From NCBI RefSeq assembly GCF_003853705.1, contig NZ_QTQI01000012.1, positions 124,001-188,000 of the forward strand: 64,000 nt of DNA. Reading direction: 5' to 3'. A program made the translations under genes and the position numbers. Positions 41,510 through 47,872 of this stretch are shown here, piece after piece; position 1 is the stretch's first letter, and each line of letters opens with the position of its first letter. The notes below the pieces were generated by a model, which worked only from the letters and a program-made list of their open reading frames with translations, was not told the origin of the DNA and ran no database searches. Source of the DNA: Burkholderia sp. Bp8992 (GTDB taxonomy: Bacteria > Pseudomonadota > Gammaproteobacteria > Burkholderiales > Burkholderiaceae).

Positions 41510-42264
41510 TGCTTGGGATCCTTGGCGGGTGCCTGCCCGGTGACGACGGGGCTGTCGGCGGGGCGCGGCGAGCCGTCGCGCGGCGGCAGGTAGTCGGTGA
41601 ACTGGCGCTTCGGCAGCTTGCCCGAGACCAGGTCGTCGAACAGCTGGCGCGAACGGCCGCGCAGGTACGGCGCCATCACGGAGATCACGTGCATGCTGAC
41701 CTGGTGCAGTTCCTCGCGGATCGCGTCCTGGTCGTTGTATTTGCGCGGGTGCATCACGTACTGATACGACAGCCAGTAGGTCGAGATCACGGCCATGTTG
41801 GTGGCAATGACTTCGATCTCGGCGGGCGTGGCGACCATTTCCGCGTCGGACACGAGCAGCTCGCACATGTCGCGCGCGAAGCGCACCTTGTGGCTGATGA
41901 TCTGCTTGAAGTGCGTCTCGAGCGTGCGGTTGCGGGCGAGCAGGTCGTTGAGGTCGCGATACAGGAACCGGTAGGTCCACATGAAATCGGCCATGTACTG
42001 CAGGTACGACCAGGTTTCGTCGATCGTCGGACGGTGATCTTCAGGGAAGCGCAGCCGCCGTTCGATCTGCTGCTCGAACTGCGCGAAGATGCTGTTGATG
42101 ATGTCGTCCTTGTTGCGGAAATGGTAGTACAGGTTGCCTGGACTGATTTCCATTTCCTCGGCGATCGTCGTGGTCGTGACGTTCGGCTCGCCGATCTCGT
42201 TGAAGAGTTTCAACGACAACTCGAGAATCCGTTCGCGGGTGCGGCGGGGAGGTTTCGCTTCCAT
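41506..42264 (-). CDS. TetR/AcrR-family transcriptional regulator
   Basis: A 252-residue regulator. The N-terminal helix-turn-helix domain (residues 8-55) has TRERILELSLKLFNEIGEPNVTTTTIAEEM and ISPGNLYYHFRNKDDI. The rest is a helical ligand-binding domain followed by a disordered Pro-rich tail. It is the first gene of an operon with a LOG-family hydrolase and an SDR, which it may control together with itself. The ligand is unknown. Confidence 0.9.
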   Translation of the reverse strand: MEAKPPRRTRERILELSLKLFNEIGEPNVTTTTIAEEMEISPGNLYYHFRNKDDIINSIFAQFEQQIERRLRFPEDHRPTIDETWSYLQYMADFMWTYRFLYRDLNDLLARNRTLETHFKQIISHKVRFARDMCELLVSDAEMVATPAEIEVIATNMAVISTYWLSYQYVMHPRKYNDQDAIREELHQVSMHVISVMAPYLRGRSRQLFDDLVSGKLPKRQFTDYLPPRDGSPRPADSPVVTGQAPAKDPKQ

Positions 42265-42469
42265 GTCGTCCGGCCCTGTGTGTGCCGGACTGGCGGGCGC
42301 TGCAATCGATGCTGCGTGATTCGTCCGGCGCGGGTTGCTGTTCTATGTCTAGCGGACGATTATAAACCGGGGTTTCGCCCCACCGGGGCATTTCGTGATC
42401 GCGGCCCCGCGCGGCGCATGGTGCAGCGCCGCACGCGGGCGGCGCGCGACGCGTCCGCCCGATACCCGT

Positions 42470-43006
42470 CTAGAAGCCGAGCCAGTGTGCGACGACCGGG
42501 CCGAGCACGAAGCCCCACGTGGTCACGCACGCGAACAGCGCAACCGTCACGGCCGCGCTGCCGAGATCCTTCGCGCGCTTGGAGAGTTCGTGGCGCTCGA
42601 GCGAGATGCGGTCGATCGCGGCCTCGACGCTCGAGTTCAGCAGCTCGACGATCAGCACGAGCAGTACCGAGCCGATCAGCAACGCGCGCGACGCGGCCGG
42701 CACCGGCGCGAACGCACCGATCGGGAGCATCAGCGCGGCGAGCGTGAGTTCCTGGCGAAACGCGCTCTCCTCGCGGATCGCGACGCGAAAGCCGTTCAGC
42801 GAATGCTTGAGGGCGTACCACGCGCGCGTGATGCCGCGGTGGCGCTTGTACGGGTTCGGCGGCAGCGGCGACAGCTGGTCGTCGGGGCCGAGCGGCTCGT
42901 GCGCGTGCACGTCCGCTTCGGCGTGCGGCTCTTCCTCGTCGAACGGGCGGTGCCGTTGCGGCGTGGAGGCAGGGGGCGGGGTCTTGTCGTTCAGGTCTCG
43001 TTTCAA
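42470..43006 (-). CDS. dgkA: Diacylglycerol kinase
   Basis: A 178-residue protein. The last 120 residues are a standard three-helix DgkA with AIREESAFRQELTLAAL, VELLNSSVEAAIDRISLERHELSKRAKDLGSAAV. It phosphorylates diacylglycerol to phosphatidic acid. An unusual 60-residue N-terminal extension, rich in Pro, Asp, Glu and His, precedes it. The start is a TTG overlapping the agt stop (TTGA). Its place as third gene after plcP and agt suggests that it reclaims the diacylglycerol made by PlcP. Confidence 0.9.
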   Translation of the reverse strand: MKRDLNDKTPPPASTPQRHRPFDEEEPHAEADVHAHEPLGPDDQLSPLPPNPYKRHRGITRAWYALKHSLNGFRVAIREESAFRQELTLAALMLPIGAFAPVPAASRALLIGSVLLVLIVELLNSSVEAAIDRISLERHELSKRAKDLGSAAVTVALFACVTTWGFVLGPVVAHWLGF

Positions 43007-44037
43007 ACGGCGGCACCTTCGGCTGGCGAGTACGCGGTCTTCGGCAGCGGCTTCAGATGCGACGCGAACTGCTCGGATGCCGCGCGCCACGAGAAGCGTT
43101 CCGCCCACGCGCGCGCAGTCGTGCGTTCGATCTTCAGCGCTTCGAGGCAGGCTTCCTGCAGGTCCTCGTGCATCGCGCCCGCGTCGCCGCCGCTGAGCAC
43201 GTCGATCGGGCCCGTGACGGGATACGCGGCCACCGGCGTACCGCAGGCGAGGGCTTCGAGCAGCACGAGGCCGAACGTGTCGGTGCGACTCGGGAACACG
43301 AACACGTCGGCCGCAGCATACACCTTTGCAAGCTCGCCCTGTGACAGCACGCCGAGATAGTTCGCCTCCGGATAGCGCGACTTCAGCTCCGCGAGCGCGG
43401 GGCCTTCGCCCGCGACCCACTTCGAGCCGGGCAGGTCCAGGCGCAGGAACGCCTCGACGTTCTTCTCGATCGCGACGCGGCCCACGTACAGGAAGATCGG
43501 CCGCGCGGTGTTGAGCACCTTCGAATCCATCGGCCGGAAGATGTCGAGATCGACGCCGCGGGTCCACAGCACGACGTTCGTGAAGCCGAATTTCTCGAGG
43601 TCCTGCTTGACGACCGGCGTCGGCGCCATCACCGCGAGCGACGGGCCGTGGAACCAGTGCAGGAAGCGATAGGTCGCCGCCAGCGGGATGCCGAAGCGCG
43701 CCTGCACGTATTCCGGAAAGCGCGTGTGGTACGCGGTCGTGTACGGCAGCTTGCGCGAGCGCGCGTAGCGCCGCGCGGCGAGGCCGAGCGGGCCTTCGGT
43801 CGCGATGTGCAGCGCATCGGGTGCGAACGCATCGATCCGCGCGCGCAGCTTGCGGTACGGCAGGATCGACAGGCGGATCTCGGGGTAGGTCGGGCAGGGT
43901 ATCGTGCGGAATTCCAGCGGCGTCAGCAGTTCGACGCGGTGGCCGAGCGCGGTGAGTTCGCGCGACGTGCTCTTCAGCGTGCGCACGACGCCGTTGACCT
44001 GCGGTTCCCACGCGTCGGTGACGATCATGATCTTCAT
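43003..44037 (-). CDS. agt: GT4 glycosyltransferase, diacylglycerol glycosyltransferase (Agt) type
   Basis: A 344-residue GT-B enzyme. It begins MKIMIVTDAWEPQVNGVVRTL and has DALHIATEGPLGLAARRYA, YTTAYHTRFPEYVQARFG, LWTRGVDLDIFRP and the donor-site motif SRTDTFGLVLLEALACGTPVAAYPVTGP with the catalytic glutamates. In alphaproteobacteria, members of this branch (Agt) glycosylate diacylglycerol under phosphate limitation to make glycolipids. It lies 29 bases after the PlcP-type gene. Substrate assignment is by family and neighbourhood, not proven; related GT4 enzymes make other glycolipids. Confidence 0.72.
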   Translation of the reverse strand: MKIMIVTDAWEPQVNGVVRTLKSTSRELTALGHRVELLTPLEFRTIPCPTYPEIRLSILPYRKLRARIDAFAPDALHIATEGPLGLAARRYARSRKLPYTTAYHTRFPEYVQARFGIPLAATYRFLHWFHGPSLAVMAPTPVVKQDLEKFGFTNVVLWTRGVDLDIFRPMDSKVLNTARPIFLYVGRVAIEKNVEAFLRLDLPGSKWVAGEGPALAELKSRYPEANYLGVLSQGELAKVYAAADVFVFPSRTDTFGLVLLEALACGTPVAAYPVTGPIDVLSGGDAGAMHEDLQEACLEALKIERTTARAWAERFSWRAASEQFASHLKPLPKTAYSPAEGAAV

Positions 44038-44066
44038 CGCGGCTTTGTCCTGTAGGTAGGGTTGTG

Positions 44067-45005
44067 TCAGGCAGTGGCCTTGGCCTTGCGCGACGCGGTC
44101 TCCGACGGTGCGGTGCGCATCACCGTCCAGTAGACGATCTTCAGTTCGCCTTCCATCGTTTCGACGAGTGCGGACAGGCTTTCGACCCAGTCGCCGTCGT
44201 TGCAGTACAGCACGCCGTCGATGTCGCGGATCTCGGCCTTGTGGATGTGGCCGCACACGACGCCGTCGCAGCCGCGGCGGCGCGCCTCGTCGGTCATCAC
44301 GGTCTCGAACTGCGAGATGAAGTTGACCGCGTTCTTGACCTGGTGCTTCAGGTACTGCGACAGCGACCAGTACTGGAAGCCGAGCCGGCTGCGGATCCGG
44401 TTGAACCAGCGGTTCAGCACGAGGATCAGCGTGTACAGCGTGTCGCCGAGGTACGCGAGCCATTTCGCGTGCTGGATCACGCCGTCGAACAGGTCGCCGT
44501 GCACGATCCACAAACGTTTGCCCGCGAGCGTCGTGTGGAACGCCTCGCCGCGCACCTGGATGTCGCCGAACGCGAGATCGCAGAACTGCCGCGCGCCTTC
44601 GTCGTGGTTGCCGGGGATGTAGACGACCTGCGTGCCCTTGCGCGCCTTGCGCAGGATCTTCTGCACGACGTCGTTGTGCGCCTGCGGCCAGTACCAGCCC
44701 TTCTTCAGCTGCCAGCCGTCGATGATGTCGCCGACGAGGTACAGGTATTCCGAATCGTTGTGGCGCAGGAAGTCGAGCAGGTACGGCGCCTGGCAGCCGC
44801 TCGAGCCGAGGTGGATGTCGGACAGCCAGATGGTGCGGTACCGATGGGTGGACGGGTCGGGGTCGTCGTGCTGCGTGGTGTGCGCGGCAGGCGGTTCTTG
44901 CGACGCCAGGCCATCGGTGACAGCCGAGCCGGACAGGAAGGCGGTGGCGGCGCGGGCGCCGATAGGGTGACGGAACAGGGAGGTCGCGGACGTTTTCTGG
45001 CCCAT
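44067..45005 (-). CDS. plcP: PlcP-type metallophosphoesterase (often mislabelled UDP-2,3-diacylglucosamine diphosphatase)
   Basis: A 312-residue calcineurin-like phosphoesterase after a 55-residue polar leader. The metal motifs are complete: IWLSDIHLGS, YLVGDIIDGW, VVYIPGNHDE, IVHGD and VVCGHIHKAEI. The GNHDE block and GWYWPQAHNDVVQKILRKARKG resemble PlcP of Sinorhizobium, which cleaves phospholipids to diacylglycerol in low phosphate, and differ from true LpxH (GNRDF). A PHO-box-like site lies 47 bases upstream of the start, and agt and dgkA follow. The function is inferred from family, context and this site. Confidence 0.75.
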   Translation of the reverse strand: MGQKTSATSLFRHPIGARAATAFLSGSAVTDGLASQEPPAAHTTQHDDPDPSTHRYRTIWLSDIHLGSSGCQAPYLLDFLRHNDSEYLYLVGDIIDGWQLKKGWYWPQAHNDVVQKILRKARKGTQVVYIPGNHDEGARQFCDLAFGDIQVRGEAFHTTLAGKRLWIVHGDLFDGVIQHAKWLAYLGDTLYTLILVLNRWFNRIRSRLGFQYWSLSQYLKHQVKNAVNFISQFETVMTDEARRRGCDGVVCGHIHKAEIRDIDGVLYCNDGDWVESLSALVETMEGELKIVYWTVMRTAPSETASRKAKATA

Positions 45006-45051
45006 GCATGACTCGCGCCGGTTGACATTACCGGCATTCCGCCATGCGGGC

Positions 45052-45069
45052 GTGACTGTGCCATGACAG
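45052..45069 (-). promoter_or_regulatory. PHO-box-like site upstream of plcP-agt-dgkA
   Basis: Read on the minus strand, the sequence is CTGTCATGGCACAGTCAC: two seven-base half sites (CTGTCAT and CAGTCAC) in direct repeat with the 11-base period typical of PhoB sites. Only one base of the second half departs from CTGTCAC. The same DNA (45052-45073) is also a perfect inverted repeat, GTGACTGT-N6-ACAGTCAC. It lies 47 bases before the plcP ATG. Confidence 0.65.
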
Positions 45070-45230
45070 TCACGAGACGTTCTTATTACGACCGTTGCAG
45101 GGTGTTTAGCAGTGAATCGATGGGCGTTGCGTAGCCTGCCGCACGGAACGGCCGACGGTTGTGCGGCAAGGCCGTCGGGCAGGGTGACGGAAGGCGGTAC
45201 GAGCGGTTTTCGTCTGGCGAATGCGGCGCG

Positions 45231-45737
45231 TCAGCGTGGTATGGCGACGACGCGTGTGCGCGCGATCCGGTCGTGCGGGAACTGGCGATCGCCATGCAGC
45301 CGGGCAGCGCCGGCCCAGATGACGACCCAGGCGGCCGTGAGCGCGAGCGTGACGGGCACCGACAGGCCGAGGAGCGGATGCAGCGCGAGCGGCGGCAGGA
45401 ACCACAGCCAGCCGAGCGCATAGCGGACGAGCGCGTGGCCGGCGCCCAGCGGCCGGCCGCTCGACGATTCGAGGCGCAGCCGCCAAGTCTTCATCGGCAG
45501 TGTCTGGCCGCCGTGGGTCCAGAACCACACGAAGTACGCGCCGACGACGAGCGCGATCCACGCGGCGAGCAGGTTGTGATGGACGAGGCCGTTGCGTTGC
45601 TGCGTCGCGAGGCTGAACGCGAGCCCGGCGAAGAACACGACGCCGAACAGCAGCACGCCTTCGTAGAGCAGCGCGGCGAGACGCCGCCGCACGGACGGTG
45701 TGGTGGTTGTGGTGTCGGGTGCGCGGGCGTTCGCCAC
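45231..45737 (-). CDS. RDD family membrane protein
   Basis: A 168-residue protein. It begins with the RDD-domain pattern (VRRRLAALLYEGVLLFGVVF) and has three hydrophobic segments, with WTHGGQTLPMKTWRLRLESSSGRPLG between them. RDD proteins are of mostly unknown function, some linked to ion transport. The ATG is six bases past the stop of the DUF3106 gene, so it is the last gene of the sigma factor operon. Confidence 0.85.
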   Translation of the reverse strand: MANARAPDTTTTTPSVRRRLAALLYEGVLLFGVVFFAGLAFSLATQQRNGLVHHNLLAAWIALVVGAYFVWFWTHGGQTLPMKTWRLRLESSSGRPLGAGHALVRYALGWLWFLPPLALHPLLGLSVPVTLALTAAWVVIWAGAARLHGDRQFPHDRIARTRVVAIPR

Positions 45738-46531: not shown

Positions 46532-46957
46532 TTAGTGAGCGCGCGAAAGATACGCGTTGAACCCGTGATCGAGATACGCGTTGAGCGGCAGGTCGTCGCT
46601 GAGCATCGCCGCGTCGATGTCGGCGAGTTCGGCGGTGCGCTGCATGTCTTCCCAGTAGGCGATGCCGACGAGCCCCGCGAGCAGCAGCGCCAGCGGCCAC
46701 GCGCGCAGCAGGCGGCGCGCGAACGACGCCTGCGGGCGGCTCGCGGGAGCCGTGCCGTAGGCGCCGGCCGCGCCGGCGAAGGCCGGCACGAACACCGGCG
46801 CGGTCGCGGCTTCGGGCTTCTTGCGCGCGAGCGCGGCCCGGCGGGCGACGGCCAGGCGGTCGGTGGTCGCGGCAGGCAGGGCGGCCGTGCGCTCGTCAAG
46901 CGCGCGGCGCACCTTCAGCGCGAATTCGTATTCTCGATTTGCGGGAGCGGAGCTCAT
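46532..46957 (-). CDS. DUF3619 family membrane protein, possible anti-sigma factor
   Basis: A 141-residue protein with a charged cytosolic N-terminus (REYEFALKVRRALDERTAALP), one membrane helix near 88-103 (RAWPLALLLAGLVGIAYW) and a short periplasmic tail. This layout and its start overlapping the sigma gene stop (ATGA at 46954-46957) fit an anti-sigma factor. No direct evidence of sigma binding can be read from sequence. Confidence 0.8.
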   Translation of the reverse strand: MSSAPANREYEFALKVRRALDERTAALPAATTDRLAVARRAALARKKPEAATAPVFVPAFAGAAGAYGTAPASRPQASFARRLLRAWPLALLLAGLVGIAYWEDMQRTAELADIDAAMLSDDLPLNAYLDHGFNAYLSRAH

Positions 46958-47517
46958 AGCGTGATTCCTTTGGCCTTGAGCGCTTGCGCCAGTGTATGGG
47001 TGGCCCGCGAGCAGTGCGTCTTCACGCTGCCCTCGGAGCACCCCATTGCGGCGGCAGTCTCGGCGACATCCATATCTTCCCAATAACGCATCAGGAACGC
47101 TTCCCGTTGACGCGCCGGAAGCTTCTGGATTTCTTCGTCGATCAGGGCCAGAACCTGCTCTCTTTCGAGGCGGTGCTCGCTGCTCTCGACGCCCGCGTTG
47201 TCGTCCGCGGATTCGAGTGTTTCGAGCGGGTCGAAGTCTTCGTCGTCGGTATTGTTCAGCGACGAGAAGAGCGTGACCCAGGTGTTGCGGACTTTCTGCC
47301 GACGAAACCAGTCGTGGACCGTATTCTGCAGGATCCGTTGAAAAAGCAGCGGCAATTCGGCCGCCGGCCGGTCGCCGTACTTTTCGGCGAGCTTGATCAT
47401 CGCGTCCTGCACGATGTCGAGCGACGCATCGTCGTCACGCACGGCGTACGCGGCCTGCTTGAACGCGCGCCTTTCGACGCCCGCCAGAAAGTCGGCGAGT
47501 TCCTTGTCTGATGCCAT
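46954..47517 (-). CDS. ECF RNA polymerase sigma factor
   Basis: A 187-residue sigma-70 family protein with region 2 (FKQAAYAVRDDDASLDIVQDAMIKLAEKY, LLFQRILQNTVHDWFRRQK) and region 4 (LIDEEIQKLPARQREAFLMRYWEDMDVAETAAAMGCSEGSVKTHCSRATHTL), with an acidic linker between. It is the first gene of a four-gene operon with DUF3619, DUF3106 and RDD proteins. The signal is unknown. Confidence 0.92.
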   Translation of the reverse strand: MASDKELADFLAGVERRAFKQAAYAVRDDDASLDIVQDAMIKLAEKYGDRPAAELPLLFQRILQNTVHDWFRRQKVRNTWVTLFSSLNNTDDEDFDPLETLESADDNAGVESSEHRLEREQVLALIDEEIQKLPARQREAFLMRYWEDMDVAETAAAMGCSEGSVKTHCSRATHTLAQALKAKGITL

Positions 47518-47872
47518 TCCGTGAAGGTATGCGCTGCGGGCCGCTGCGTGGTGAAAAAGGTCGAAAAATTTCGTAAAACCCGCGGATGCTATCAAATTTT
47601 CGTGCCGCTTGGCACCGGGGCGGGCGCTGCACGTTGCGCGCGAGCCGCGGCAGTGGGGCGCCGGGCGGCGTGCATGATGCGGTGCGGGATATTTTGCTTG
47701 ACGACCCAATCGCGACCCGCTATCGTCAGCGATTCGCAACATGAAGTGATGGTCTCATTTGAGGCTGGCCCAAGAAGCCCGCCCTTCAAACTGGACGCGC
47801 CGCTTGAACCCGAGCCACAAGCCCGGCAGAGAGCACCCGATCAATTTTTTGCCGAAAATTCGAAAGGTCAAA
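47518..47872. other. Divergent intergenic region between the sigma operon and ilvI
   Basis: This 355-base region carries promoters for both sides. The ilvI promoter candidate is at 47698-47726. No leader peptide rich in branched-chain residues was found, and the open frame running across to ilvI lacks features of a real gene. Confidence 0.5.
47698..47726 (+). promoter_or_regulatory. Candidate ilvI promoter
   Basis: TTGACG (47698-47703) and TATCGT (47721-47726) are 17 bases apart, the optimal spacing. They would give an mRNA leader of about 140 bases before the ilvI ATG. Confidence 0.5.

Follow-up and report, generated by a model that had tools for sequence, protein, structure and literature searches.

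Membrane remodelling by PlcP yields diacylglycerol, a lipid whose build-up must be avoided. In a 64,000-nt stretch of the Burkholderia sp. Bp8992 genome (contig NZ_QTQI01000012.1, positions 124,001 to 188,000; hereafter the window), we analysed three tandem open reading frames (ORFs) on the minus strand, plcP, agt and dgkA, which are predicted to encode a phospholipase, a diacylglycerol glycosyltransferase and a diacylglycerol kinase (Table 1). The genes are closely packed: plcP and agt are 29 bases apart, and the agt stop and the dgkA start overlap by 4 bases (TTGA). These ORFs and spacings confirm the tight three-gene arrangement described in a first-pass annotation of this DNA, although the end coordinate given there, 45073, falls 5′ of the plcP start codon (ATG, 45005).

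Table 1. Position and description of features at the plcP–agt–dgkA locus (window coordinates)
Feature	Coordinates	Strand	Description
plcP	45005-44067	minus	ATG start; 312 aa; predicted metallo-phospholipase C of PlcP type
agt	44037-43003	minus	ATG start; 344 aa; predicted GT4 diacylglycerol glycosyltransferase
dgkA	43006-42470	minus	TTG start; 178 aa; predicted integral-membrane diacylglycerol kinase
PHO box, candidate PhoB site	45069-45052	minus	CTGTCATGGCACAGTCAC; 46 bases 5′ of the plcP ATG
DgkA N-terminal extension, residues 1-51	42854-43006	minus	acidic/proline-rich, fast-evolving
Weak terminator-like hairpin 3′ of dgkA	42368-42382	minus	

The phosphoesterase is of the PlcP type

The plcP product (P0001) matched metallophosphoesterase domains only (39–41 bits; Pfam). 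Its metal motifs read SDIHLG, GDIIDGW, PGNHDE, HGDL and GHIHK, versus SDLHL, GD(F/L)F(E/D)(F/Y)W, HGNRDF, HGDx and GHTHR in four LpxH proteins of relatives. The protein is 51% identical to Sinorhizobium meliloti PlcP (locus L207) and 48–50% identical to Pseudomonas aeruginosa PlcP (L209 and L208). The S. meliloti gene neighbours an acyl-homoserine-lactone synthase gene and a LuxR-type gene, as SMc00171 does. In L209, CyaB lies next to plcP–agt; since PA3217 is also CyaB, we treated L209 as the PA3219–PA3218 locus. When S. meliloti PlcP was used as a query against four genomes of the family (Burkholderiaceae), each returned a single match, the operon gene, at 50–52% identity. In the P. aeruginosa report (PMC8528852), PA3219 itself shares 47% identity with Phaeobacter PlcP and 46% with that of S. 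meliloti.

We rejected an LpxH identity for this protein. It scored 35.1 and 33.6 bits against the NCBIfam LpxH models, far under the cut-offs of 134 and 190.35 (for TIGR01854, 33.6 versus 190.35), and a separate gene above the LpxH cut-off was found in all 11 relatives searched, although one relative has it split into two adjacent parts. A tblastn search with P0001 (E 1e-4) gave no match in any of 12 LpxH loci (L092–L103), and the motifs of the two proteins differ. A tree check suggested by the first-pass annotation came out in part: among 42 PlcP-type and 10 LpxH rows, the two groups were split with 100% support in the Shimodaira–Hasegawa-like approximate likelihood ratio test (SH-aLRT) and the window protein fell on the PlcP side, but an approximately unbiased (AU) test in which it was held with LpxH gave p 0.44, the attachment point of the very long LpxH branch being ambiguous. 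For this tree, 13 of 55 PlcP-type rows were omitted, partly to lessen long branches (L091, with 12% of columns filled, L126, L119, L120, L166, L172, L032, L043, L045, L046, L049, L059 and L061). The family assignment is therefore based on scores, identity and motifs and not on the AU test. By these measures the window phosphoesterase is of the PlcP type and a close relative of tested PlcPs, with a predicted phospholipase activity, in line with the GNHDE-based call of the first-pass annotation. Its warning that routine labels mislead was also justified, as 24 of the 31 matching records in a plasmid collection were labelled UDP-2,3-diacylglucosamine diphosphatase (the other 7 had no listed feature), a name that misleads for this PlcP group.

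The glycosyltransferase resembles Agt1

The agt product (P0002) has GT4 domains and is 52% identical to P. aeruginosa Agt1. In a forward best-hit search with Agt1, the operon gene was found at 349–372 bits in 4/4 family genomes and other matches reached at most 37 bits, a gap of more than 300 bits. The nearest comparison genome (G001), which has 53% of the window's sampled 31-letter words in common with it and a PlcP 98% identical to that of the window, gave 372 bits for the operon copy and 34.5 bits for the next-best match. These results agree with the proposed Agt identity: by sequence likeness, the operon agt is a diacylglycerol glycosyltransferase gene of the Agt type, with that activity predicted.

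DgkA has a conserved core and a fast-evolving extension

The dgkA product (P0003) matched DAGK_prokar (PF01219) at 109.4 bits (cut-off 22.3) and diacylglycerol kinase structures in the PDB at 7.2e-27. The six residues that are catalytic in Escherichia coli DgkA (E28, E69, N72, E76, K94 and D95) map to E80, E121, N124, E128, K146 and D147 of the window protein and are invariant in 20/20 aligned family proteins. The TTG start overlapping the agt stop, already seen in the first-pass annotation, lies at −4 with an open frame in 29/30 same-genus loci; in 10 loci from four further genera, the codon at this position is ATG or GTG, also in frame. The overlap is therefore not a peculiarity of a single genome. 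The remaining genera with all three genes (the triad) have a gap between agt and dgkA or a different start, and no such overlap.

Ahead of the DgkA core lies an extension of ∼50–56 residues. It had been described as a 60-residue, acidic and His-rich segment; it exists and is acidic and proline-rich, but it is not especially rich in His, since the first 52 residues contain 4 His as against 11 Asp/Glu and 12 Pro. Measured from the first in-frame start considered, its length varies from about 13 to 151 residues across the family. Among the genera closest to the window, the shared part is mainly a short tail resembling EPLGPDDPLAPLPFNPYKGNRG; elsewhere it is little beyond NP(Y/H)KGNRG. Within the genus, codon changes in the extension were 259 replacing versus 140 silent, compared with 64 versus 345 in the core. 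On these counts the extension is a translated, fast-evolving part of the predicted protein, and its composition suggests an acidic tail without ordered structure.

A candidate PHO box precedes plcP

The candidate PHO box upstream of plcP matches 13/14 consensus bases and is the sole site with fewer than three mismatches in the whole window. Its position is kept within one base in 30/30 same-genus loci, with 11–13 matching bases, and 28 of these boxes reached p ≤ 0.02 against 200 first-order resampled sequences. Because the species are closely related, these are not 30 independent facts. In other genera of the family, p ≤ 0.02 was reached at 30/38 loci (29/37 genomes, as G010 counts twice), where place and sequence vary, and it was reached at 43/121 loci from elsewhere, near-copies included. 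Reverse-complement controls matched 8–11 bases at family loci and 8–12 at the others, mostly 8–10. The scan covered loci with 300 or more upstream bases and omitted eight that were broken or repeated. The conserved candidate box supports the phosphate-starvation role that the first-pass annotation had proposed for the operon.

For dgkA itself, a search of the 400 bases preceding the DgkA core at 29 loci gave no PHO box above chance (best 8–10/14, p ≥ 0.17); at loci with a long extension, this span falls inside the extension and agt. Since dgkA has no such box of its own, PHO control of this gene, if real, would come from plcP. A simple scan of 42000-45400 found no sigma-70-like promoter, a result that says little in GC-rich DNA.

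The adjoining dgkA is a family trait

plcP is present in 219/249 family genomes and in 127/299 genomes of a phylum sample (E 1e-10). We examined 69 family loci, a non-random set of the 30 best-scoring same-genus loci and others picked for genus coverage; G024, with a broken plcP, was excluded. agt directly follows plcP in 67 of them. In 63, representing 13/15 genera, dgkA comes after agt with varying gene spacing, so that the gene-order comparison suggested by the first-pass annotation came out in its favour. These 63 include L065, with fragmented plcP and agt, and L122, counted by hand as its match begins just before the cut. The exceptions are L049 (no dgkA within its 9.5 kb), L059 (plcP alone) and four g21/g22 loci with no agt beside plcP or only ∼310 bases visible past agt. 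In non-family loci, agt lies next to plcP in 69/121, and dgkA is next in 0/69; at least 250 bases past agt were visible in 64 of these 69 loci and at least 1000 in 47. The non-family set includes near-copies, and L185, titled a Burkholderiaceae metagenome-assembled genome (MAG), is of uncertain status in it. In conclusion, the plcP–agt pair is widespread and the adjoining dgkA is a trait of the family.

Several loci differ from this pattern. In the excluded G024 (contig C33; L064, L066 and L067), plcP is broken into several fragments and only part of a dgkA is matched nearby, which we read as an operon in decay. The 19 loci L131–L149, nearly all titled Pseudomonas, have no agt beside plcP within the cut; therefore, glycosylation would be encoded elsewhere there. 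On Mitsuaria sp. 7 plasmid NZ_CP011515.1 (L210), plcP lies beside ppk1 and a Ppx/GppA phosphatase gene rather than agt, a polyphosphate neighbourhood. The P. aeruginosa loci L208 and L209 and the S. meliloti locus L207 (‘pSymB’, 3.7 Mb) are chromosome-like plcP regions in plasmid-labelled records, which we read as mislabelled, fused or captured DNA.

The operon copy of dgkA is the only PF01219 gene in 14/17 triad genomes searched, and G245, G005 and G034 have a second copy. Three family genomes (G002, G007 and G037) have neither plcP nor dgkA. G086 has plcP, with no dgkA and no agt beside plcP, and G042 has dgkA and no plcP. In G057, G022, G023 and G073, dgkA is located elsewhere.

The window operon is preceded on the same strand by an RDD-family gene (45737-45231) and followed by a TetR gene (42264-41506). 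Three terminator-like hairpins occur in the scanned region, versus a shuffle mean of 2.4, and the hairpin 3′ of dgkA is by itself no evidence of a terminator. Further upstream, at 46532-47742 on the minus strand, lie a sigma-70 region 4 gene, extracytoplasmic function (ECF)-like, and a DUF3619 gene, and beyond these a DUF3106 gene; they possibly make up a small unit of sigma factor and anti-sigma factor.

A proposed route for surplus diacylglycerol

On balance, we favour the view that this is a PhoB-activated lipid-remodelling operon that co-produces DgkA, which would convert excess diacylglycerol back into phosphatidate. At low phosphate, PhoB would bind the candidate box and turn on one plcP–agt–dgkA message. 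Judging by their likeness to tested enzymes, PlcP would cleave membrane phospholipid to diacylglycerol and a phospho-headgroup, and Agt would add a sugar to the diacylglycerol, giving a phosphorus-free glycolipid. DgkA, as gene order, overlap and precedent suggest, would phosphorylate the diacylglycerol unused by Agt to phosphatidate. Such recycling would prevent diacylglycerol build-up and keep precursor for the phospholipid pathway. Precedents come from Pseudomonas putida BIRD-1, where DagK and PlcP are among the proteins enriched in phosphate depletion and the discussion describes these proteins as PHO-dependent (PMC5082522), and from dgkA genes beside mcr-3 and mcr-8, with a proposed role in recycling lipid by-products (PMC10285318). 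More tentatively, the usually single DgkA of the family (here the Burkholderia–Cupriavidus–Ralstonia–Polynucleobacter type) may have been drawn into the PHO regulon, with a three-way diacylglycerol branch point on one message and a variable acidic tail that may tether DgkA near PlcP or Agt.

Several observations weigh against a recycling kinase. PlcP and DgkA together would spend ATP in a cycle that frees no phosphate on balance, which is odd to switch on when phosphate is scarce unless flux is controlled. In the P. putida report, the passage listing proteins lost in the PHO mutant names PlcP and OlsAB and does not name DagK (PMC5082522). A linked kinase is not generally required, since dgkA is next in none of the 69 non-family plcP–agt loci. 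Finally, dgkA is intact behind the broken plcP and agt of L065 (G095, 1.7 Mb) and is located elsewhere in G073, so the gene has uses beyond the pathway; the former suggests that dgkA is needed independently in the small-genome lineage of G095.

The same two genomes speak for the possibility that plcP–agt is a starvation operon and dgkA only a housekeeping gene downstream, driven chiefly by a promoter of its own within agt and handling diacylglycerol from other reactions, such as periplasmic glucan synthesis or lipid A modification. As the sole DgkA in 14/17 triad relatives, it must serve general needs. However, the overlap in 29/30 same-genus loci and 10 loci of four genera points to translational coupling, an argument qualified by the triad genera that have no stop–start overlap, and the gene order is conserved across 13 genera. 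The promoter scan also gave no sigma-70-like site, for what a simple scan is worth in such DNA. We consider a mainly housekeeping dgkA rather unlikely, but a reading to be taken seriously. The first-pass annotation had instead seen a reversible switch, in which DgkA restores the phospholipid membrane once phosphate returns. Gene order and the conversion of diacylglycerol to phosphatidate would suit this. However, the substrate of DgkA is diacylglycerol and not glycolipid, and the PHO box would silence the operon, including a dgkA without a box of its own, when phosphate is back. Therefore, the switch does not follow from the gene set, and we regard it as improbable. Least credible of all is that an LpxH-type lipid A enzyme is paired here with a glycosyltransferase acting in the envelope, with no link to phosphate. 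The database label and the AU result would fit, but the model scores, the true LpxH gene in 11/11 relatives, the 12 LpxH loci unmatched by P0001, the fully supported PlcP/LpxH split and the PHO box all oppose it.

Recycling of surplus diacylglycerol thus remains our preferred role for DgkA. A family-wide operon joining a maker, a user and a recycler of diacylglycerol lends itself to direct genetic testing, and from it phosphate-free glycolipids would be expected in Burkholderiaceae. The paper nearest to this subject, on the phosphorus-stress proteome of B. cenocepacia (Shropshire et al. 2021; 10.1111/1462-2920.15451), may already list these proteins. Among the matches listed by full-text literature searches, we found no report of a plcP–agt–dgkA operon or of PlcP-made Burkholderia glycolipids. 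P. aeruginosa mutants that have no such phosphate-free lipids show poor survival in polymyxin B (PMC8528852).

Comparison with known systems

The PlcP–Agt pathway with a PHO box is already known, including in Pseudomonas (PMC4796936, PMC8528852), so that the first-pass annotation's view of it as alphaproteobacterial and hidden is not supported. P. aeruginosa PlcP–Agt1 (PA3219–PA3218) has the plcP–agt order and upstream PHO box of the window, together with a second, unlinked Agt2 (PA0842) (PMC8528852). Unlike the window, L208 and L209 have no dgkA behind agt. S. meliloti PlcP, at 51% identity, has the same metal motifs, but L207 has neither agt behind plcP nor dgkA. The window's pair matches the plcP–agt ‘type 2’ context (PMC4796936), and the Agt of Agrobacterium and SAR11 is a related known system (PMC4796936, PMC3972451). 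In P. putida BIRD-1, levels of a diacylglycerol kinase and of PlcP increase together when phosphate is depleted, although the passages on this describe no operon for PlcP, DagK and OlsAB and do not give the kinase family of DagK (PMC5082522). The mcr-3–dgkA and mcr-8–dgkA pairs (PMC10285318) share with the window the placing of DgkA beside another lipid enzyme. That partner is presumably also one that releases diacylglycerol, but it is a lipid A phosphoethanolamine transferase, unlike the phosphate-starvation remodelling proposed for the window.

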